Shown piece after piece: positions 16,214 to 30,551 of a stretch of 37,578 nucleotides of DNA. Location: the NCBI GenBank assembly GCA_904395845.1, contig CAJFOH010000109.1:1-37578 (forward strand), given 5' to 3'. The notes below the pieces were generated by a model, which was given only the letters and a program-made list of their open reading frames with translations, searched no databases and had not been told where the DNA came from. A program made the translations under genes and the position numbers. The DNA is from an uncultured Lachnospiraceae bacterium (GTDB taxonomy: Bacteria; Bacillota; Clostridia; Lachnospirales; Lachnospiraceae). Within the stretch, counting starts at the first letter, position 1. Every line of letters begins with the position of its first letter.

Positions 16214-16242
16214 TTGACAAAAAATAGAAAACTTCGTATAAT
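16214..16242 (+). promoter_or_regulatory. Sigma-A promoter
   Basis: Consensus TTGACA-N17-TATAAT. Confidence 0.85.
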
Positions 16243-16248
16243 ATACAC

Positions 16249-16371
16249 ATTGGCTCGGAGGGTGAATCATTCGAAGAAATGATTGGCTGGATAAGGCTCA
16301 GACTGAGATGTCTGTTTCTTATTCAGCCTTTTTTAAAGGCAAAATATAGAAGAAAAGACGGAGGGAGTAAG
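16249..16371 (+). promoter_or_regulatory. Structured 5' leader with hairpin and intrinsic terminator (candidate attenuator or riboswitch, unclassified)
   Basis: Hairpin AATCATT(16265-16271)/AATGATT(16278-16284). Terminator GGCTGGATAAG(16285-16295)/CTTATTCAGCC(16318-16328) with nested CAGAC/GTCTG, followed by T6 (16329-16334), between a consensus promoter and the ABC start. Confidence 0.7.
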
Positions 16372-18105
16372 ATGAAGTTAATTTTAAAACATTTAAAAAA
16401 TTATAAAGCCTTATTACTTTTAAATGTAATCTCTGTATTTGGATTTGCCTTAGTAGAATTGGGAATACCTACAGTAATAGCAGTAATGATTGACAAAGGT
16501 GTTGTTACAGGGGATAAAGGATATTTATTTCGAATGGGCGGTATTATCGCAATTATTTCTGTATTAGGTGCAGGAGGAACTATTTTACTAGGGTATTGTT
16601 GTGCAAGAATATCTACGCTAGTTACAAGAGATATTCGTTTGGAAGCATTTAAAAAAGTACAAAGTTTATCTCATGCAGAGATGAATCAATTAGGAGTATC
16701 ATCACTTATTACAAGAACCAATAATGATGCTTATCAAATTATGATGTTTCTAAATACAATTTTAAAAATGGCACTACTAACACCTGTTATGATAATTAGT
16801 AGCTATATTTTAATTATTCAAACATCGCTAAGTTTATCATTTATCGTATTAGCCACAGTACCATTAGTTGTTGGTGGAGTTATTATAGCAGCAAAAATAT
16901 CTTCCCCAATTAGTGAAAAGCAACAAATGTCACTAGACTCTATTAATCGAATTTTCAGAGAAAATTTAACTGGAATACGAGTAATACGTTCTTGTAACAA
17001 TAATGAATACGAAACCAGTCGTTTTGATACGGAAAATAAATTTTTTATGAAGCAGTCTAAAAAGTTATTTTGTTTAATGTCTACTACTGAGCCAATCTTT
17101 TTCTTACTAATGAATATGGCAGCAATTGCAATTTATTATGTATCTGCAAAAATGATTGATGCCAATACAATTCAAGTAGGAAGGGTAGTAGCATTTATGG
17201 ATTATTTATTCCATGCCATGCTTTCAGTTATGTTGTTTTGTATGGTATTTATGATGTATCCAAGAGCCAATGTATCTGCAAAACGTATTATGGAAGTATT
17301 AAATATGGAATCTAGTATTCAAAACAGTCCACAAGTCATTGAAGAAAATAAAAAAGAAAGTAGCATTGTATTTGATGATGTTACCTTTGCATACCCAGAT
17401 GGAGAAGAGGCTGTATTAAAACATATTTCTTTTGAGGCAAAAAAAGGAGAAACTGTTGCATTTATTGGTAGTACCGGTTCAGGAAAAAGTACACTAATTA
17501 ACTTAATTCCACGATTCTATGATGTAAATGCAGGAGCAATTCTCATTAATGGAGTTAATATTAAAGAGTATGATATTGAAATTCTTCGTAACAAAATTGG
17601 GTTTGTATCTCAAAAGGCAACTCTATTTCGTGGAACAATAGAAGAAAATATCCGCTTTGGAAAAGAAGATGCTACCATGGAAGAAATTATTCATGCGGCT
17701 AAGGTAGCTCAAGCCTATGATTTTATTATGGAAAAACCAGAAGGATTTAAAGAAATGATTGTAGAAGGTGCAACTAACCTTTCAGGAGGGCAAAAGCAAC
17801 GTCTTTCTATTGCAAGAGCATTGGTAAGAAAGCCAGAAATCTACATATATGATGATTCCTTTTCAGCACTTGACTTTAAAACGGACGCCACATTACGCCG
17901 TCAGTTAAAGAAAGAAGTAAAAGATTCCATTATGTTAATTGTAGCTCAACGCGTGTCCACAATTATGGACGCAACTCAAATTATTGTGTTAGATGAAGGA
18001 AAAGTAGTAGGAAAAGGAACACACAAAGAATTATTACAAAGTTGTCCAATTTACTATCAAATTGCAGCTTCACAATTAAGCGAGGAGGAAATGCAACATG
18101 AATAA
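16372..18105 (+). CDS. ABC exporter (permease-ATPase), degenerate-site subunit of a heterodimer
   Basis: Walker A GSTGSGKST; NLSGGQKQR; Walker B IYIYDDSFSALD (Asp in place of Glu); LIVAQRVST (Gln in place of the switch His). Start at ATG 16372 after GGAGGG. Confidence 0.92.
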   Translation: MKLILKHLKNYKALLLLNVISVFGFALVELGIPTVIAVMIDKGVVTGDKGYLFRMGGIIAIISVLGAGGTILLGYCCARISTLVTRDIRLEAFKKVQSLSHAEMNQLGVSSLITRTNNDAYQIMMFLNTILKMALLTPVMIISSYILIIQTSLSLSFIVLATVPLVVGGVIIAAKISSPISEKQQMSLDSINRIFRENLTGIRVIRSCNNNEYETSRFDTENKFFMKQSKKLFCLMSTTEPIFFLLMNMAAIAIYYVSAKMIDANTIQVGRVVAFMDYLFHAMLSVMLFCMVFMMYPRANVSAKRIMEVLNMESSIQNSPQVIEENKKESSIVFDDVTFAYPDGEEAVLKHISFEAKKGETVAFIGSTGSGKSTLINLIPRFYDVNAGAILINGVNIKEYDIEILRNKIGFVSQKATLFRGTIEENIRFGKEDATMEEIIHAAKVAQAYDFIMEKPEGFKEMIVEGATNLSGGQKQRLSIARALVRKPEIYIYDDSFSALDFKTDATLRRQLKKEVKDSIMLIVAQRVSTIMDATQIIVLDEGKVVGKGTHKELLQSCPIYYQIAASQLSEEEMQHE

Positions 18106-19879
18106 GAAGACAAGTCCAAAAGAGTGTATTGGTCAATTATTTCATTATGTAAAGCCATATCGCTTTAAGTTAATATTTGCACTAGCAATGGTAGTTGTAT
18201 CCAACTTAACATTGGCAATCAATCCAACCATTGAGGGCAGAATTACAACTCAACTTGCAAAAGATGCAACAGAAATAATAGCAGGTGTAACAGGAGCTCA
18301 TGTTCATTTTGGCATTGTTTTTCATATTATGGCATTGCTTGGAACTATGTATGTAATTAAAACAGCATCACAGCTTCTTACTGCATTTTTCCTTACAGAT
18401 GCTATCCAACAAACAATGCATGATATGAGAAATGCACTTCAAATGAAAATACAAAAATTGCCAGTAAAATACTTTGATAACCGTCCAGTTGGTGATGTAT
18501 TAAGTTGTGTAACCAATGACGTAGATACATTAAGCAATGCATTACAGCAAACATTAACAAAAGTATTTGATGCTATTTTAACTGTAATTTTTGTATTAAT
18601 AATGATGTTTCGTATTAATTGGGTAATGACAATTGTAGCAATGATTATTATCCCACTTGCAATCGCTATTACAAGAGCGTTTGTCAATCGTTCACAAAAG
18701 TTATTTGATAACCAACAAAAAATGGTTGGAGAAATGAATGGTACCATTACAGAATTATATACAGGATTTCGTGAAATTCAATTATTTAATAAGCAAGAAG
18801 ATTCCATTGACAAATTTATAGAAGTAAATAACAATATGTGTGAGGCAGCATTTAAGGCACAATTTATGTCTTCTTTAATTTCACCATGTGTTTCTCTTGT
18901 TACTTACATTACCATTGGTATTGTATCTGTAATTGGCTGTATTTTGGTGATAGGTGGAACGGTATCCATTGGTGGATTACAAGCATTTGTCCGTTATATT
19001 TGGGCAATTAATAATCCACTATCACAAGTATCACAGCTATCTGCACAAGTGCAAGCAGCTTTTTCTGCTATGGGACGTATTTTCACCTTGTTAAATGAAC
19101 AAGAGGAAGAACAAGAGGGTAGTGTACAAATTGATGAAGAACAAATTGAAGGTAGAGTAACATTTGAGCATGTTCAATTTGGCTATCACGATGATTTATT
19201 AATGAAAGATGTAAACTTTGAAGTAAAACCTGGACAAATGGTAGCCATTGTAGGACCAACTGGTGCAGGAAAAACAACATTAATGAATTTGCTTCTTCGT
19301 TTTTATGACGTAAAAGGTGGTTCGATTAAGATTGATGGTATTGACATTAGAGAGATGAATAGGGAAGATTTAAGAAAACTATTCTCTTTAGTATTACAAG
19401 ATACTTGGTTATTTAAAGGTAGCATTTATGACAATATTCACTATGGAAGATTAAATGCGAGAAAAGATGAGGTAATTGATGCTGCAAAGATGGCAAATGT
19501 ACATCATTTTATTCGTACCTTAACAAAAGGCTATGATTTTCCAATTAATGAAGAGGCCAATAATATTTCTCAAGGAGAAAAGCAATTATTAACTATTGCA
19601 AGAGCAATTTTGAAAAATCCTCATATTTTAATTTTAGATGAAGCAACATCTTCCGTAGATACTAGATTAGAACGTATGCTACAAGATGCTATGAAAAAAG
19701 TAATGGAAGGAAGAACTTCTTTTGTTATTGCTCATAGATTATCTACAATTAAAAATGCAGATTTAATTCTCGTTTTAAAAGATGGAGATATTATTGAACA
19801 AGGAACCCATGAATCCTTGTTAGCGAAAAAAGGAGCCTATGAAGCTCTATATAACTCACAATTTGCAAATAGTAATTAA
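18098..19879 (+). CDS. ABC exporter (permease-ATPase), canonical subunit
   Basis: GPTGAGKTT, ISQGEKQLLTIARA, LILDEATSSVD, VIAHRLSTI; overlaps the upstream gene. Confidence 0.93.
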   Translation: MNKKTSPKECIGQLFHYVKPYRFKLIFALAMVVVSNLTLAINPTIEGRITTQLAKDATEIIAGVTGAHVHFGIVFHIMALLGTMYVIKTASQLLTAFFLTDAIQQTMHDMRNALQMKIQKLPVKYFDNRPVGDVLSCVTNDVDTLSNALQQTLTKVFDAILTVIFVLIMMFRINWVMTIVAMIIIPLAIAITRAFVNRSQKLFDNQQKMVGEMNGTITELYTGFREIQLFNKQEDSIDKFIEVNNNMCEAAFKAQFMSSLISPCVSLVTYITIGIVSVIGCILVIGGTVSIGGLQAFVRYIWAINNPLSQVSQLSAQVQAAFSAMGRIFTLLNEQEEEQEGSVQIDEEQIEGRVTFEHVQFGYHDDLLMKDVNFEVKPGQMVAIVGPTGAGKTTLMNLLLRFYDVKGGSIKIDGIDIREMNREDLRKLFSLVLQDTWLFKGSIYDNIHYGRLNARKDEVIDAAKMANVHHFIRTLTKGYDFPINEEANNISQGEKQLLTIARAILKNPHILILDEATSSVDTRLERMLQDAMKKVMEGRTSFVIAHRLSTIKNADLILVLKDGDIIEQGTHESLLAKKGAYEALYNSQFANSN

Positions 19880-21602: not shown

Positions 21603-22073
21603 ATGAATGAAAATTATGTAACATTAACCATTGGAAAGCAAAAAAATATTGCACTTATTGCCCATGATGGAAAAAAAGCAGAGTTAATTCAATGGTGTGA
21701 AGAAAATAAAGAGATTTTAAAAAATCACTTTTTATGTGGGACAGGAACAACTGCCCGTATGATTACAGATAAGACAGGTTTACCAGTGCGTGGATATAAT
21801 AGTGGTCCATTAGGTGGCGACCAACAAATCGGAGCAAAGATTGTAGAGGGAAGAGTAGATGTAGCAATCTTTTTTTCTGACCCATTAACAGCACAACCAC
21901 ACGACCCAGATGTTAAGGCACTGATTCGTATTGCACAAGTATATGATATTCCAATTGCCAATAACAAAGCATCAGCAGACTTTATTATTCATTCCCCTTT
22001 AATGAATCAAGAATATAATCATAAAGTGATTAATTTTAAAAAGAACATTGAAGAAAGAGCAGAAACATTATAA
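21603..22073 (+). CDS. mgsA: Methylglyoxal synthase
   Basis: IALIAHDGKKAELIQW, GTGTTARMI, SGPLGGDQQIGAKI, FFSDPLTAQPHDPDVKALIRIA. Confidence 0.96.
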   Translation: MNENYVTLTIGKQKNIALIAHDGKKAELIQWCEENKEILKNHFLCGTGTTARMITDKTGLPVRGYNSGPLGGDQQIGAKIVEGRVDVAIFFSDPLTAQPHDPDVKALIRIAQVYDIPIANNKASADFIIHSPLMNQEYNHKVINFKKNIEERAETL

Positions 22074-22135: not shown

Positions 22136-22173
22136 AATTAAGTATTAGAGCAATGATTAAGAAGGAGATAATT

Positions 22174-23313
22174 ATGAAATGGATACATTTATCAGATTTA
22201 CATATTGGAAAACGAGTCAATGAAATATCAATGATAGACGACCAAAAATATATTTTACAAAATATTTTAGATATTATTGAGGAAAAACAAGTAGAAGGTG
22301 TCATATTAGCAGGGGATATTTATGACAAACCAATTCCATCAGCAGAAGCTGTTCAAGTGTTAGATGATTTTTTAAGTCAATTATCAAAACGAAACTTATC
22401 TACTTATATGATTAGTGGAAATCATGATTCTATGGAACGATTATCCTTTGCGTCTTCATTATTAAAAAACAGTCACGTTTATATTTCAAACGTATTTAAT
22501 GGAATCATTGAACCAATCATAACAAAAGATAACTATGGAGAAATTGCTATTTACTTACTACCATTTATCAAACCTGCAATGGTACGACCATTTTATGAAG
22601 AAGAAATACAATCTTATAATGATGCCATAGAAACTATTATGAAACATATAACAATAGAAAAAGAAAGAAGAAATATATTAGTAAGTCATCAATTTGTAAC
22701 AGGAGCCATTACTTGCGATTCAGAAGAAATTTCTGTTGGAGGAATGGATAATGTAGATAGTAGATTGTTTGAAGCCTTTGATTATGTGGCACTAGGGCAT
22801 ATTCATGGGGCACAGTCCATTGGCAGAGAAACTATACGATATTGTGGAACACCATTAAAATATTCATTTTCAGAAGAAAAGCATGTGAAAACGGCAACCA
22901 TTATAGATATGAAAGAAAAAGGAAATATAACCATTGAAGAAGTGCCTTTGATTCCAAAGCGAGATATGAGAACAATAAAAGGAAGCTATGAGTTTGTAAC
23001 AGCAAAGGAGCATTATAAAACTACCAATGTAGACGATTATATTCATATTACATTAACAGATGAAGAAGATATTGTAGATGTTATGGCAAAACTTCGGACA
23101 ATCTATCCAAATCTTATGAGTATTTCTTATGATAACAAACGAACAAGAGAAAATCAAAAGTTACAAAATGTTGAGAAAGCCAAAGAAAAGACACCAATCC
23201 AATTATTTGAAGAACTGTATCAAGTGCAAAATAATAGTACAATGAGTGAGGAGCAAATACAGTTTATCACAAAACTAATGGAAGATATTTGGGAACATGG
23301 AGGGGAAAATTAG
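22174..23313 (+). CDS. sbcD: Exonuclease SbcCD subunit D
   Basis: MKWIHLSDLHIGKRV, LAGDIYDKPIPS, SGNHDS, VALGHIHGAQ; start at 22174 after AGAAGGAGA. Confidence 0.95.
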   Translation: MKWIHLSDLHIGKRVNEISMIDDQKYILQNILDIIEEKQVEGVILAGDIYDKPIPSAEAVQVLDDFLSQLSKRNLSTYMISGNHDSMERLSFASSLLKNSHVYISNVFNGIIEPIITKDNYGEIAIYLLPFIKPAMVRPFYEEEIQSYNDAIETIMKHITIEKERRNILVSHQFVTGAITCDSEEISVGGMDNVDSRLFEAFDYVALGHIHGAQSIGRETIRYCGTPLKYSFSEEKHVKTATIIDMKEKGNITIEEVPLIPKRDMRTIKGSYEFVTAKEHYKTTNVDDYIHITLTDEEDIVDVMAKLRTIYPNLMSISYDNKRTRENQKLQNVEKAKEKTPIQLFEELYQVQNNSTMSEEQIQFITKLMEDIWEHGGEN

Positions 23314-26085
23314 ATGAAACCGATAAAATTAACATTATCTGGATTTGGTCCGTATGCAGATGTGGAAGTCATAGAATTTAATCAACTTGGAGAACAAGGT
23401 ATTTATTTAATTACTGGTGATACAGGTGCAGGAAAGACAACTATTTTTGATGGAATTATATTTGCTTTATATGGAGAAGCCAGCGGAACCATTCGTAGTG
23501 TAGATTCTTTAAGAAGTAAGTATGCAAAAAAAGATACAAAGACTTATGTAGAACTAGAATTTATGTATCGTGGAGAAACGTATCATATTTATAGAAATCC
23601 TGAGTATATGCGTCCAAGCAAACGAGGAGAAGGTTTTACAAAGGAGAGGGCAGAAGCTATATTAACCTTGCCAGATGGAAAAATAATACATAAATATACA
23701 GAAGTAACAAAGGAAGTAACACAAATTTTAGGGGTGAATCGAGCTCAGTTTGCTCAAATAGCAATGATAGCTCAAGGTGATTTTTTAAAGTTATTACTTG
23801 CAAAAACAGAGGAACGGAGTAAAATTTTTCGAGAAATATTTAAAACAAAACCTTATCAACAGTTGCAAGAACGATTAAAAATAGAAACAGGAAAATTAAA
23901 GGCAGAATATGAAGCATTAAAAAATAGCATTGCTCAATATATAGATGGTATTTTGTGTAAGGAAGATACAGACTTATATATGCTCATTCATCAAGAAAAG
24001 AAAGAAAATAGTCAAGTATTATTTGATGATATTGTACAAGGGTTAGAGCAGTTGATAAAAAAAGAGGAAGAAACTATTACGAAAGTATCAAAGGAAGTAG
24101 AGCAGTTAGAGGGGGAAATAACTCATATACACCAAGTCATTGGTAAAACAGAGCAAGAATTAAAACGAACAAAAGAAATTGAGCAAACAAAAATACTTTT
24201 AGGTGAGGCGGAAAGAAAACGAAAGGATATTAAGGAGGCGTTTGAAAAAGCAAGGGAGAAAGAGCCAATATTTCAAGCATTATCTGTTCAAATTACAAAA
24301 GAGTCAGAGCAGCTTAAGCAATACAAACAAGTAGATGACTTGTATCAGGCATTTTTGTACATGAAGCAAAAAGAAGAAAAAAGTAAAAAAGAATTGGAAT
24401 CCTTATCTACAAGTAGAGAGTTGTGCAAAAAAAGAATACAACAAATAAATCATGAATTAGAACGTATGGTAGGAATGGAAAAAGAGCAAGCCGATGCCAT
24501 GTATGAAGCAGATAATATAGAAAAAGAAGAAGCAGAGTTACAACAATTAATTCATAGTTATAAAAGCTATGTAGAAGAAGAAAAAAACTATGCAAAAGTA
24601 AAGGAAGAATACAAAAACATAAGACAATGTTTTATTCATGCAAAAAGTGAATATGAAGAAAAAGAAAGGGCATATAGAGATGGACAAGCAGGCTTATTAG
24701 CAAAAGATTTAAAAGAAGGAGTGGCTTGCCCTGTGTGTGGTTCTAAAAGTCATCCTAAGCTAGCAATCTTGCATGAAACACTGCCAACACAAGAAGAATT
24801 AAAAAGGGAAAAACAACAATTAGAGAAATATGATAAAGAAGATAGAGAAAAAAGTGAAGAAGCAGGGCGAGTGTATGGAGTGTTGGAAGAAAAAAGGAAG
24901 TTATTACAAACTCAAATAAAACAAATTCTTGGAGAATATGAAATTGAACAATTAAAAGAAAAGGGCAATGAAAAATATAAGCAAATACAAGGAAAAAAGG
25001 CAAAAATCAAAGAAAAGCTAGCTTATATAGATACACAAATAAGAAAGAAAGGAACACTAGAAAAGGAGTATAAAAAGTTACAAGCCTTGCAAGAGGATAG
25101 CCAAAAACAAATAGAAGAAAAACAAAGTCTGTTAGGAAAAGAAGAAGGGGAAAGAAACTTACTAGAACAACAGTACAAGGAAGAAAAAGAAAAATTGCCA
25201 TTTGATACAGAAGAAACTGCCATTGCATTTATTCAAGCATTGGAATTGGAAAAGGGAAAAATAGAACATCAGATACAACAGGCAACAAAAGATTATGAGT
25301 TACTTGATAGAACAATACATGAGTACCAATTGACAATTGAAACGTTAGAACATCAAAAAGAGGAGTTTCCATATGAATCCATAGAAGTGTTGTATGAAAA
25401 GGAAAATCATTTAACAAACAAAAAAGAAGGAAAAACAAAGGAAAAAGAACAATTACAAGTTCAATTACAAAATAACAAGCGATGTTATTTGGGGATAATG
25501 GAAAAGCAAGTTGTAATGAGAGAAGTTGAGAAAACCTATCAATCTGTAAAGGCATTATCAAATACTGCCAATGGAGCAGTACAAGGAAAAGATAAAATTA
25601 TGTTAGAAACTTATATTCAGATGTCATACTTTGACCAAGTGCTTGCACACGCCAATACAAGACTAATGGTTATTACCAGTGGTCAATATGAGTTAAAACG
25701 AAAGGAAGAAGCCAACAATCAACGAAGCCAAAGTGGACTAGAAATTGATGTAATTGACCATTACAATGGAACAACGAGAAGTGTTACTACCTTATCAGGA
25801 GGCGAGTCTTTCGTTGCTTCCTTAGCTCTAGCATTAGGACTTTCTGATGAAATTGAGCAAAGTGTAGGAGGAATCCAGTTAGATACTATGTTTATTGATG
25901 AAGGGTTTGGAACACTAAGTGAGGATATTTTAAACCAAGCAATGAAAGCACTTATGGGGTTAAGTCAGGGCAATCGTTTGGTAGGAATTATCTCTCATGT
26001 TTCTGAATTAAAAGAACGAGTGGAAAAGCAAATTATTGTTACAAAGGAAAAAGTTGGTGGAAGCCATATAAGAGTACAAGGATAA
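23314..26085 (+). CDS. sbcC: Exonuclease SbcCD subunit C (SMC-like ATPase)
   Basis: MKPIKLTLSGFGPYADVEVIEF, GDTGAGKTTIFDGI, coiled coils, CPVCGS zinc hook, TLSGGESFVASLALALGLSD, FIDEGFGTL. Confidence 0.96.
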   Translation: MKPIKLTLSGFGPYADVEVIEFNQLGEQGIYLITGDTGAGKTTIFDGIIFALYGEASGTIRSVDSLRSKYAKKDTKTYVELEFMYRGETYHIYRNPEYMRPSKRGEGFTKERAEAILTLPDGKIIHKYTEVTKEVTQILGVNRAQFAQIAMIAQGDFLKLLLAKTEERSKIFREIFKTKPYQQLQERLKIETGKLKAEYEALKNSIAQYIDGILCKEDTDLYMLIHQEKKENSQVLFDDIVQGLEQLIKKEEETITKVSKEVEQLEGEITHIHQVIGKTEQELKRTKEIEQTKILLGEAERKRKDIKEAFEKAREKEPIFQALSVQITKESEQLKQYKQVDDLYQAFLYMKQKEEKSKKELESLSTSRELCKKRIQQINHELERMVGMEKEQADAMYEADNIEKEEAELQQLIHSYKSYVEEEKNYAKVKEEYKNIRQCFIHAKSEYEEKERAYRDGQAGLLAKDLKEGVACPVCGSKSHPKLAILHETLPTQEELKREKQQLEKYDKEDREKSEEAGRVYGVLEEKRKLLQTQIKQILGEYEIEQLKEKGNEKYKQIQGKKAKIKEKLAYIDTQIRKKGTLEKEYKKLQALQEDSQKQIEEKQSLLGKEEGERNLLEQQYKEEKEKLPFDTEETAIAFIQALELEKGKIEHQIQQATKDYELLDRTIHEYQLTIETLEHQKEEFPYESIEVLYEKENHLTNKKEGKTKEKEQLQVQLQNNKRCYLGIMEKQVVMREVEKTYQSVKALSNTANGAVQGKDKIMLETYIQMSYFDQVLAHANTRLMVITSGQYELKRKEEANNQRSQSGLEIDVIDHYNGTTRSVTTLSGGESFVASLALALGLSDEIEQSVGGIQLDTMFIDEGFGTLSEDILNQAMKALMGLSQGNRLVGIISHVSELKERVEKQIIVTKEKVGGSHIRVQG

Positions 26086-26322: not shown

Positions 26323-26372
26323 ATATCCAAGAATTAGTTTTATATCTAACAATTATAAGTATGGAGGGAATA

Positions 26373-26834
26373 GTGGTGAATCATAAAAGGTCAATCAATT
26401 TGGAAATAAGGAGATTGGCGACCAAGATTCGTAGAGAATTTGAGCATGGTCCTAATCGTGCCTATATTGATAGTGTCACAGGAGCAAATGGTTGGATTAT
26501 TGGTTACTTGGCATGCAATAAGGACAAAGATATTTTTCAGAAAGATGTGGAAGAAGAATTTTCCATTCGTCGTTCTACGGTTTCAAAAGTCGTAGGGTTA
26601 ATGGAACAAAAAGGGCTAATTATGAGAGAACCAGTAAGTTATGATGCACGTCTAAAAAAACTTGTCTTAACACAGAAAGCATGGGAACTTCATAAAATTG
26701 CTATTGAAGACTCAAAGTGTGTAGAGGAGTGTTTAATACAAGGGTTAAGTGAAGAAGAAATAGAACAACTATATGTTTTATTGGAAAAGATGAGTCATAA
26801 CTTAAAGGAAAAAAATAAATCCAATAAGTGTTAA
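26373..26834 (+). CDS. MarR-family transcriptional regulator
   Basis: QKDVEEEFSIRRSTVSKVVGLMEQKGLIMREPVSYDARLKKLVLT winged HTH. The listed ATG overlaps the GGAGGG SD, so GTG at 26373 or 26376 is likelier. Confidence 0.9.
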   Translation: MVNHKRSINLEIRRLATKIRREFEHGPNRAYIDSVTGANGWIIGYLACNKDKDIFQKDVEEEFSIRRSTVSKVVGLMEQKGLIMREPVSYDARLKKLVLTQKAWELHKIAIEDSKCVEECLIQGLSEEEIEQLYVLLEKMSHNLKEKNKSNKC

Positions 26835-26916
26835 ATATATCTATAAAAGATTTATATTTTGTTAGATGAAGAACGAATAAGATAGATGATAAGAAGAAGG
26901 ATAGGAGGAGAGCGTA

Positions 26917-28662
26917 ATGATAAAAAGGTTAGCTAGTTGTATTAGAGAGTATAAGAAAAGCTCCATTTTAGCACCTATTTTTATTGTCATGGAAGTAGTA
27001 ATGGAAGTTATCATTCCAATTTTAATGGCAAATTTAATTGATTATGGTATTGATGCTGGAAATATGGGATACATTTACAAAATGGGATTATTCCTAGTAT
27101 TTTCATCAGCAATCGCATTATTGTTTGGAGTATTATCTGGTAGGAGTGCAGCGGTTGCATCTGCAGGATTTGCAAAAAATTTAAGAAAAGATATGTATTA
27201 TAACGTACAAAACTTCTCTTTCTCAAATATTGATAAATTTTCTACGGCTAGTATTGTTACACGTCTTACTACCGACGTAACAAACGTACAAAATGCGTAT
27301 CAAATGATTATTCGATTGGCATTTCGTTGTCCTGTAATGTTAATTTTATCTGTTGTTATGGCATTAAAAATTAGTCCACAACTATCTTTAATCTATGCAG
27401 GTTGTATTCCAGTACTAGGATTTGGATTGTTTTTTATTATGTCAAAGGCCCATCCAATTTTTGAACGTGTATTTAAAAAATATGATAAGTTAAACAATGT
27501 AGTTCAAGAAAATCTTCATGGAATTCGTGTAGTAAAATCATTTGTTCGTGAAGAACGTGAAATTGAAAAATTTGATGCCATTTCAGAAGAAATCTACAAA
27601 GATTTTTCAAAGGCAGAAAAAATCTTATCCTTTAATGCACCAATTATGCAATTTTGTGCATATACTTGTATGATTGTCATTGCATGGTTTGGAGCAAGAA
27701 TGGTAATTGCTTCTGGTAACAATCCAGCTATTGGATTTACTACTGGACAATTAATGAGTTTAGTAACTTATACAATGCAAATTTTAATGAGTTTAATGAT
27801 GCTTTCCATGGTATTTGTTATGATTGTTATCTCAAGAGCATCAGCAGAACGTATTGTTGAATTATTAGATGAAACAAGTGATTTAACAAATGGAAACAAT
27901 CCTATTGAAGAAGTAAAAGATGGCTCTATTGAATTTAAGAATGTTCAATTTGGATATTCAAAAAATAAAGAAAAAAGATGTCTTAGAGATATTAATGTGT
28001 CTATTCAATCAGGAGAAACTGTTGGTATCATTGGTGGAACAGGTTCATCAAAAACAAGTTTTGTGCAATTAATTCCTAGACTTTATGATGTAGTAGAAGG
28101 AGAGCTTCTTGTTGGTGGAGTGAATGTAAAATTCTATGACCTTGAAGCACTTAGAAACCAAGTTGCTATGGTTCTTCAAAAAAATGTATTATTCTCTGGA
28201 ACAATTAAAGAAAACTTACGTTGGGGAAATGAACATGCAACAGACGAAGAGTTAATTCACGCATGTAAGTTAGCACAGGCACATGACTTTGTTACTTTAT
28301 TCCCAAAAGGATACGATACTTACATTGAACAAGGTGGTAGCAATGTATCTGGTGGACAAAAGCAAAGACTTTGTATTGCAAGAGCATTATTAAAGAAACC
28401 AAAAATCCTTATTTTAGATGACTCTACAAGTGCAGTAGATACAAAGACCGATGCACTTATTCGTAAAGCATTTTTAGAAGAAATTCCAGATACAACAAAG
28501 ATTATCATTGCACAACGTGTTTCTTCTATCCAAGATGCAGATAAAATAATCGTTCTTGATGAAGGTGAAATCAATGCAATCGGTACACATGAGCAGTTAC
28601 TAGAAACTTGTGAAATTTATCGAGAAGTTTATGAATCTCAAGTAAAGGCGGTGGCACAATGA
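26917..28662 (+). CDS. ABC exporter, degenerate-site subunit of a heterodimer
   Basis: Walker A GGTGSSKTS; NVSGGQKQRLCIARA; ILILDDSTSAVD; IIAQRVSSI. Confidence 0.93.
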   Translation: MIKRLASCIREYKKSSILAPIFIVMEVVMEVIIPILMANLIDYGIDAGNMGYIYKMGLFLVFSSAIALLFGVLSGRSAAVASAGFAKNLRKDMYYNVQNFSFSNIDKFSTASIVTRLTTDVTNVQNAYQMIIRLAFRCPVMLILSVVMALKISPQLSLIYAGCIPVLGFGLFFIMSKAHPIFERVFKKYDKLNNVVQENLHGIRVVKSFVREEREIEKFDAISEEIYKDFSKAEKILSFNAPIMQFCAYTCMIVIAWFGARMVIASGNNPAIGFTTGQLMSLVTYTMQILMSLMMLSMVFVMIVISRASAERIVELLDETSDLTNGNNPIEEVKDGSIEFKNVQFGYSKNKEKRCLRDINVSIQSGETVGIIGGTGSSKTSFVQLIPRLYDVVEGELLVGGVNVKFYDLEALRNQVAMVLQKNVLFSGTIKENLRWGNEHATDEELIHACKLAQAHDFVTLFPKGYDTYIEQGGSNVSGGQKQRLCIARALLKKPKILILDDSTSAVDTKTDALIRKAFLEEIPDTTKIIIAQRVSSIQDADKIIVLDEGEINAIGTHEQLLETCEIYREVYESQVKAVAQ

Positions 28663-30551
28663 GTAAACCAAAAAAGAAAGTAAATACACAGACAATCAAG
28701 CGATTGATGTCATATATTAGTAAATACAAAATTCGTTTTATTTTTGTATTAATCTGTATTGTAATTAGTTCTTTAGCAAGTGTGTCATCATCACTATTTT
28801 TACAAACATTAATTGATGATTATATTAGTCCGTTACTATTAGAAGCAACTCCAAACTTTAGTGGATTAGCAAGAGCCATATTTGCTATGATGGCAATTTA
28901 TGCATTAGGTATTTTTGCAACATTATTTTACAATCGTACTATGGTTGTAATTGCACAAGGTGTATTAAAGAAAATTCGTGATGAAATGTTTGCTCATATG
29001 CAAAAGTTACCAATTCGTTACTTTGATACCCATGCACATGGAGATATTATGAGCCATTATACTAACGATGCAGATACTTTGCGCCAAATGTTAGCACAAA
29101 GTATTCCACAAATGTTTGCTTCAGCAATTACAATTATCTCTGTAATTTTTGCTATGTTATCTCTTAGTGTTTGGATGACAGCTTTCGTATTATTTTTTGT
29201 ATTTTGTATGTTACAAGTTACAAAATTTATTGCTAGTAGAAGTGGAAAATACTTTATTAAACAACAAGTGTCTTTGGGAGAATTAAATGGTTTTATTGAA
29301 GAAATGATTCAAGGACAAAAGGTAGTAAAAGTATTCTGTCACGAAGAAAAGGCGAAAGAAGCATTTGATAAGAAAAATGAAGAATTATGTAAAAATGCTA
29401 CACAAGCAAATAACTTTGCAAATATTCTAATGCCTGTTATGGGAAATTTAGGTTATTTATTATATGTATGTGCAGCCATTGTTGGAGGAACATTAGCAAT
29501 TAGTGCAGTTCCAAATATTAGTTTAACTGGTAGTGGAGTTATTACTTTAGGTATGATTGCTTCTTTCTTACAATTAACAAGAAGCTTTATTATGCCAATT
29601 AGCCAAATTTCTCAACAATTAAACTCAGTAATTATGGCACTTGCAGGTGCTGGAAGAATTTTTGAGTTAATGGATGAAAAAGTAGAAGAAGATGATGGAT
29701 TTGTTACCTTAGTAAATGCTAAATTTGAAGGAGATACATTAGTAGAAACAAAGGAACGTACTGGAATTTGGGCATGGAAGTATCCAAATAAAGACGGAAG
29801 TGTTACTTATACTCAATTAAAAGGGGAAGTTCGTTTCTATGATGTAGACTTTGGTTACAATCCAGATAAGATTGTACTTCATGATATTACATTATATGCA
29901 GAACCAGGTCAGAAAGTAGCCTTTGTTGGTGCAACAGGTGCTGGTAAGACAACCATTACAAACTTAATTAACCGTTTCTATGATATTGCAGATGGTAAAA
30001 TTCAATATGATGGAATTAACATTAACGAAATCAAAAAAGATGATTTAAGAAGATCTTTAGGCGTTGTTCTTCAAGATGTTAATTTATTTACAGGAACAGT
30101 AATGGACAACATTCGTTATGGTAAGTTAGAGGCTACCGATGAAGAATGTATTGCAGCTGCAAAATTAACCAATGCTCATGGATTTATTTCTATGTTGCCA
30201 CAAGGGTATGACACAGTATTAGAAGGAGATGGAAGTGGATTATCTCAAGGACAAAGACAGTTAATTTCCATCGCTCGTGCTGCAGTAGCAAACCCACCAG
30301 TTATGATTTTAGATGAAGCTACTTCTTCGATTGATACTAGAACAGAAGCTATTGTTCAAAAAGGTATGGATAGCTTAATGGAGGGTAGAACAGTATTTGT
30401 TATTGCTCACCGTCTATCTACAGTAAGAAATTCCGATGTAATTATGGTATTAGAACTAGGTCATATTATTGAACGTGGTAACCATGAAAAGTTAATAGAA
30501 GAAAAAGGAAAATACTATCAATTATATACAGGTGCGTTTGAATTAGAATAA
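28659..30551 (+). CDS. ABC exporter, canonical subunit
   Basis: GATGAGKTT, LSQGQRQLISIARA, MILDEATSSID, VIAHRLSTV; ATGA overlap with the upstream gene. Confidence 0.94.
   Translation: MSKPKKKVNTQTIKRLMSYISKYKIRFIFVLICIVISSLASVSSSLFLQTLIDDYISPLLLEATPNFSGLARAIFAMMAIYALGIFATLFYNRTMVVIAQGVLKKIRDEMFAHMQKLPIRYFDTHAHGDIMSHYTNDADTLRQMLAQSIPQMFASAITIISVIFAMLSLSVWMTAFVLFFVFCMLQVTKFIASRSGKYFIKQQVSLGELNGFIEEMIQGQKVVKVFCHEEKAKEAFDKKNEELCKNATQANNFANILMPVMGNLGYLLYVCAAIVGGTLAISAVPNISLTGSGVITLGMIASFLQLTRSFIMPISQISQQLNSVIMALAGAGRIFELMDEKVEEDDGFVTLVNAKFEGDTLVETKERTGIWAWKYPNKDGSVTYTQLKGEVRFYDVDFGYNPDKIVLHDITLYAEPGQKVAFVGATGAGKTTITNLINRFYDIADGKIQYDGININEIKKDDLRRSLGVVLQDVNLFTGTVMDNIRYGKLEATDEECIAAAKLTNAHGFISMLPQGYDTVLEGDGSGLSQGQRQLISIARAAVANPPVMILDEATSSIDTRTEAIVQKGMDSLMEGRTVFVIAHRLSTVRNSDVIMVLELGHIIERGNHEKLIEEKGKYYQLYTGAFELE

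Follow-up and report, generated by a model that had tools for sequence, protein, structure and literature searches.

A widespread structured leader of drug exporter genes with a candidate 5'-terminal pseudoknot next to its terminator

The window analysed here, a 37,578-nucleotide stretch of DNA from an uncultured Lachnospiraceae bacterium (contig CAJFOH010000109.1), carries ahead of a pair of ABC exporter genes a leader which, as far as sequence comparison tells, is a real, widespread and structured regulatory leader of drug exporters. The leader (16249-16334; this and all other leader features lie on the forward strand) comprises a hairpin P1, a terminator stem S2 capped by a hairpin P3, and a predicted pseudoknot S1. 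From sequence and modelled folds, the best-supported reading of its function is that of a ligand-binding ON switch, probably a 5'-terminal riboswitch embedded in the terminator, which would turn the exporter on. It may bind a small molecule directly, the binding may favour read-through, and the ligand may be a toxic compound. The RNA apparently represents a family of exporter leaders without a name so far.

The leader element is preceded by its own putative promoter, situated downstream of the stop codon of the upstream gene (16173) and composed of TTGACA (16214-16219), a 17-nt spacer and TATAAT (16237-16242). The first-pass annotation had already named it a consensus promoter; it agrees with the consensus at 12 of 12 positions, and no other such site was found in 4.2 kb; the expected transcript start is at about 16249. 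The -10 box ends 13 nt before the heptamer CGGAGGG (16256-16262). A promoter matching at least nine of the 12 consensus positions was found upstream in 122 of 160 family loci, as against 18 expected from shuffles; for 109 of these 122 the distance from the end of the -10 box to CGGAGGG is 12-14 nt. Since transcription usually starts 6-7 nt after the -10 box, this fixed distance would place the start of the family RNA 5-7 nt ahead of CGGAGGG, and the transcript is thus expected to open with the 5' strand of S1.

The first ABC exporter subunit (ABC_membrane and ABC_tran domains by Pfam) is encoded from ATG 16372, which had already been recognised as the real start, in a frame running to 18105, and its partner gene (18098-19879, ABC exporter subunit 2 by Pfam), likewise on the forward strand, overlaps it. 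The ribosome-binding site of the first gene (16359-16365, followed by the ATG at 16372-16374) reads CGGAGGG and is thus identical to the heptamer at the core of the leader. A second ABC exporter pair (26917-28662 and 28659-30551) is located in the window after a MarR-like regulator (26361-26834). No copy of the RNA motif was found at this second locus (26361-30551), and the two pairs are therefore under different control. A SbcD/SbcC-like gene pair (22153-26085), recognised by eye, adjoins a methylglyoxal-synthase-like gene (21603-22073).

The two hairpins seen in the first pass, the first with arms AATCATT/AATGATT and the second a strong terminator, were both recovered, and comparison of homologous leaders showed that their stems are kept. 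Stem S2 consists of 11 bp formed by the 5' arm GGCTGGATAAG (16285-16295) and the 3' arm CTTATTCAGCC (16318-16328), with a nested hairpin CAGAC/GTCTG, and is followed by a tract of six U (16329-16334). Taken alone, the terminator has a predicted folding energy of -25.9 kcal/mol; in the comparison with dinucleotide shuffles its z is -6.8, and no shuffle was equally stable. The whole leader with the region up to 16375 (16249-16375) has z = -2.9. Hairpin P1 (16265-16284) has arms at 16265-16271 and 16278-16284 and the loop CGAAGA, and 4-6 of its pairs have changed on both sides among relatives. Five or six pairs have changed likewise in P3 (16298-16315; arms 16298-16303 and 16310-16315, loop TGAGAT), whose loop UGARAU is conserved within the leader type that includes the window. 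Altogether, both-sided changes were found at 11 of 23 pairs of P1, S2 and P3 in the alignment A2 of 28 leaders; none of 500 shuffles, which leave the relatedness among sequences in place, scored as high, and slid controls remained far below. P1 is missing or very short in members from Bacteroidota, and in two loci (L279:1385-1515 and L280:1486-1615) it holds an extra long hairpin of about 40 nt, which indicates that its length is free.

The heptamer CGGAGGG would form the crossing loop of the pseudoknot and is a candidate ligand pocket; it is near-invariant. GGATAA of the S2 5' arm is conserved beyond the need for pairing, both in A2 and in matches selected by the covariance model. CGGAGGG, GGATAAG and TTRTCC were retained in most of 40 such model-selected matches; in another alignment, A3, their invariance is by construction, as the selection pattern fixes all three. 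The conservation of sequence in the crossing loop and the terminator stem supports a switch, because pairing alone would suffice in the stem. A loop-loop contact between UUCR and UGAR, involving nearly invariant bases, is possible in the type with conserved P1 and P3 loops. An antiterminator CGGA:UCCG, suggested by eye, was rejected as unsupported, UCCAGC being found in about a quarter of relatives.

The predicted pseudoknot S1 was overlooked in the first pass, as were the invariant heptamer and the usual MATE context; S1 and its modelled competition with S2 are new findings of this analysis. Here the first bases of the RNA (G16253, C16254, bulged T16255 and C16256) are predicted to pair just above the terminator 5' arm, with 16295-16297, so that G16295 is claimed by both S1 and S2 and can serve just one of them at a time. 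Four consecutive Watson-Crick S1 pairs can be formed in 99 of 116 relatives; the mean pairing run is 3.72, compared with 2.47 when the strands are shuffled, and none of 2000 shuffles reached it. In type A leaders S1 is CAUC:GAUG, and in type B it contains one bulged base, as in GC(U)C:GGC, AC(K)C:GGU or GGU(U)C:GACC. Among 49 type B sequences, cells with changes on both sides number 20, 10 and 8 for the three S1 pairs. The label A or B switches at least five times on the tree of MATE proteins, which argues for repeated re-pairing of S1 rather than one inherited change.

Folding predictions are consistent with a rivalry in time between the two helices. The minimum-energy fold of the nascent window RNA (16249-16317) contains S1 in the register GGCU:GGCU, and S1 is present in 98 of 116 predicted minimum-energy folds of RNAs lacking the terminator 3' arm, as compared with 35 when the 5' strand is shuffled. 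For the complete RNA, the S2 terminator wins in all 116 predicted folds and S1 appears in none, nested folding being unable to score a pseudoknotted full-length state that holds S1 and S2 together. The order in which the parts of the RNA emerge suggests that S1 forms first and S2 later, and a factor stabilising S1 would then favour read-through; experiments have established the same logic of competition in the guanidine-IV (PMC7736828, PMC11611296) and HMP-PP (PMC6478431) riboswitches. An H-type pseudoknot could also coexist with most of S2, in which case S1 might aid termination and not hinder it.

The family extends far beyond the window. With the leader alone as a BLAST query, 397 genomes from the taxonomic family of the window genome yielded matches in 28, which belong to 27 genera, and in other genera the matches were confined to the leader (part 9-90 of the 101-nt query) and did not include flanking coding DNA. 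The covariance model R1, built from 28 leaders, found the motif in 82 of the 397 genomes and 75 of 334 genera, i.e. in about one genome in five. Among 399 genomes sampled from the phylum, only five matched at a strict filter. When named genomes were scanned with a sequence pattern, at least 119 contigs from Bacillota, Bacteroidota and Spirochaetota were obtained. Among the matches listed are Lachnospiraceae, Oscillospiraceae, Clostridium, Butyricicoccus/Agathobaculum, Enterococcus, Ligilactobacillus, Lapidilactobacillus and Massilimicrobiota, the Bacteroidota Bacteroides, Phocaeicola, Parabacteroides, Paraprevotella, Alistipes and Muribaculaceae, and, from Spirochaetota, Brachyspira pilosicoli and one member of Spirochaetales. 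The plasmid collection yielded one match (L104, NZ_AP025290.1), located on a 382-kb plasmid of Treponema saccharophilum ahead of a MATE gene, which suggests horizontal spread of the motif; none was found in the phage collection. A second weak match in the genome of the window itself (G000:C238, E 0.008) was dismissed as a plain terminator.

The genes that follow the motif are predominantly exporters. Among 125 loci with a readable frame, the first gene encodes a MATE protein in 109, an ABC exporter in three, an MFS exporter in two and a singleton of another kind, annotated in part, in the remaining 11. The 109 MATE genes form one BLAST cluster, with Pfam MatE confirmed for two members spanning it, and in at least three more loci a MATE gene lies slightly further downstream. 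The MATE proteins are split into deep groups that share about 25% identity. MFS exporters follow the motif in L142, L215, L073 and L075. An ABC exporter of the same genus (L002) has the same leader and is 84% identical to the window protein, and those of L166 and L185, likewise a pair, belong to another lineage (29% identity). The first-pass view of the ABC pair as the controlled target holds in that the pair does follow the leader, but it was too narrow, as MATE genes are the usual neighbours; the recruitment of the family leader to the ABC pair is one among several. Since one type of leader precedes unrelated exporters, it can be supposed that one compound is sensed and several pumps remove it. 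In Ligilactobacillus saerimneri (L116) the motif precedes a gene for a B3/4-domain protein, not an exporter, and this outlier could be a hint to the ligand.

No family of Rfam 15 matched the window or its leader, either at the gathering threshold or at E ≤ 1, and none matched about 25 further motif loci. This negative result is weak, because the same scan, which did find a guanidine-I control, missed guanidine-IV. Text searches of the literature revealed no orphan RNA linked to MATE genes besides guanidine-IV and its variant Gd4v; the family may be listed in supplementary tables, which contain candidates by the thousand (e.g. PMC8040213). It is rather unlikely that the motif is already catalogued somewhere under another name. 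A close analogue in architecture besides guanidine-IV is the HMP-PP riboswitch (thiS motif), a small ON switch with a pseudoknot and an aptamer within the terminator (PMC6478431), the ON direction being a prediction for the present family. The HMP-PP riboswitch differs in preceding thiamin genes and not exporters, and there was no Rfam match to the present family, which speaks against this class if Rfam 15 includes it.

Several other explanations may be considered. A protein, a tRNA or a ribosome-related factor might bind CGGAGGG and the pseudoknot and thus set termination. Conserved unpaired purines are typical of protein sites too, and a regulator dedicated to the gene might be encoded at a distance from it; however, the motif is scattered over three phyla, and no regulator gene adjoins it in the loci read, the next gene being almost always an exporter, which makes such an effector unlikely. 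It is less probable still that the element simply terminates the upstream gene, or attenuates constitutively and receives no signal. A strong intrinsic terminator is indeed present, but the promoter lies between the upstream stop codon and the element, the structure accompanies exporters from one genome to the next, and the stem is conserved together with a 5' strand outside it.

Attenuation by ribosomes, as suggested in the first pass by comparison with the heterodimeric exporter BmrCD of Bacillus subtilis, would require GGAGGG to act as a Shine-Dalgarno sequence, so that ribosomes stalled or slowed at a leader frame would block the terminator, as in the BmrCD or erm type, and the switch would respond to antibiotics that act on ribosomes. 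GGAGGG matches the anti-Shine-Dalgarno sequence perfectly, BmrC/BmrD are controlled in this way (PMC4191407), and ATG 16279 of the window does open a frame, 608 aa long, that runs through the terminator into the ABC gene, as had been noted. Yet this ATG is part of P1 and is not conserved: among 116 relatives, 97 lack an ATG 3-13 nt past GGAGGG, 62 lack any of ATG, GTG and TTG there, and both the spacer length and the reading frame vary. The RNA is also expected to begin about 5-7 nt before CGGAGGG, leaving little 5' sequence, and in Bacteroidota members about 8-15 nt separate GGAGGG from the terminator. The BmrB/BmrCD leader is likewise under the control of a terminator and belongs to a heterodimeric ABC multidrug exporter, but BmrB needs a translated leader peptide (PMC4191407), and no conserved peptide is found here. 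A leader peptide was thus rejected, attenuation of this type is very unlikely, and GGAGGG is probably a structural element resembling a Shine-Dalgarno sequence by chance.

Guanidine-IV (GGAM-1, mepA motif) resembles the family closely, being a short 5' leader with a 5' hairpin and a terminator hairpin, enriched in the gut and found before MATE exporters, in which a pseudoknot competes with the terminator to give an ON switch (the direction of the switch here is a prediction). A 3' hairpin formed by the terminator is present in the window leader as well. The pseudoknot of guanidine-IV, however, joins two hairpin loops (ACCGRG and UAGGUCnUAG), and in the motif family the free 5' end would pair beside the terminator arm; the family core is CGGAGGG/GGAUAAG, and its MATE proteins are of a different lineage. 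In L. lactis, bases G62, U63, G66, U67, A71 and G72 of the second loop are needed for binding (PMC7736828). Guanidine-IV RNAs were found upstream of sugE in Lactobacillales and in one relative of the window genome; their loops are ACCGRG and CGUAGGUCCUAG, and one of them (L235) reproduces the L. lactis numbering. Both signature loops are absent from the motif family, the corresponding loops in the window being CGAAGA in P1 and UGAGAU. A first set of sugE genes, from Clostridia, had given guanidine-I RNAs only. A covariance model, R3, built from eight guanidine-IV RNAs recognises two others held out of its construction (L247 and L227) and finds matches in the phylum before sugE, PnuC-like genes and a separate MATE clade, as published; it gave no match at E ≤ 1 to the window and 16 motif loci, and R1 gave none at E ≤ 10 to the guanidine RNAs. 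Two genomes (G596 and G637) carry guanidine-IV and the motif separately. According to its published description, Gd4v shares almost all conserved bases with guanidine-IV and is found mostly ahead of transaminases (PMC9788692); judged by this description, neither trait appears to hold for the motif family, in which the conserved bases of guanidine-IV are absent. Among those first genes that were identified there was no sugE, PnuC or transaminase gene, and the 125 first genes include no cluster of the PRK07324-type transaminases known from the Gd4v context. With models cross-tested and real guanidine-IV RNAs upstream of sugE at hand, identity with guanidine-IV was rejected, and membership in guanidine-IV or Gd4v is highly improbable.

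Some further observations concern the guanidine RNAs themselves. Guanidine-IV RNAs of relatives of the window genome and of Lactobacillales (L047:785-866 and L304:1501-1577) were missed by Rfam 15. Others (L305, L306 and L301) lie before PnuC-like genes, and in L301 the RNA is followed by a small protein that looks by eye like an enzyme of the pyridoxamine-phosphate-oxidase type. CGGAGGG is also found in the 3' part of guanidine-I RNAs (L040-L046), e.g. within ACCACGGAGGGATAAAAGCC in L040. The heptamer is thus common to guanidine-I and the motif family, with no model match between them, and this is perhaps a coincidence.

Among the possibilities raised in the first pass, which had described an unclassified structured leader with an intrinsic terminator, a riboswitch of an unrecognised class fits best. 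One hallmark of riboswitches, a conserved and covarying 5' leader structure with an expression platform before functionally related but non-homologous genes, is present, and guanidine-IV (PMC7736828, PMC12186494) and HMP-PP (PMC6478431) provide validated examples of ON switches built into a terminator. The placement of the promoter, the four helices, the rivalry of S1 and S2 for G16295 and the three exporter superfamilies are all supported by sequence and comparison. Such a riboswitch may operate as follows. RNA polymerase would start about 5-7 nt before CGGAGGG and, once the terminator 5' arm and the next 3-4 bases are out, the first bases of the RNA would pair with them as S1 and enclose CGGAGGG, P1 and the terminator 5' arm in a loop. 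The toxic compound removed by the exporter would bind the pseudoknot and hold S1, the 11-bp terminator stem would remain incomplete in time, and the polymerase would continue into the exporter gene. When the compound is absent, the 3' arm would capture the 5' arm, S2 would be completed, and transcription would stop at the U tract.

The chances seem evenly divided that these leaders constitute an undescribed riboswitch class, abundant in gut and rumen bacteria, in which one common toxic compound controls at least three unrelated exporter superfamilies through an H-type pseudoknot at the 5' end that withholds the terminator arm. If true, this would add another terminator-embedded switch, simpler than guanidine-IV, with the free 5' end of the transcript as the sensor strand, and many 'multidrug' exporters of the MATE, ABC and MFS types could be assigned a shared substrate. 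If a small molecule is bound, the family would be an orphan riboswitch class pointing to a compound that gut bacteria regularly expel.
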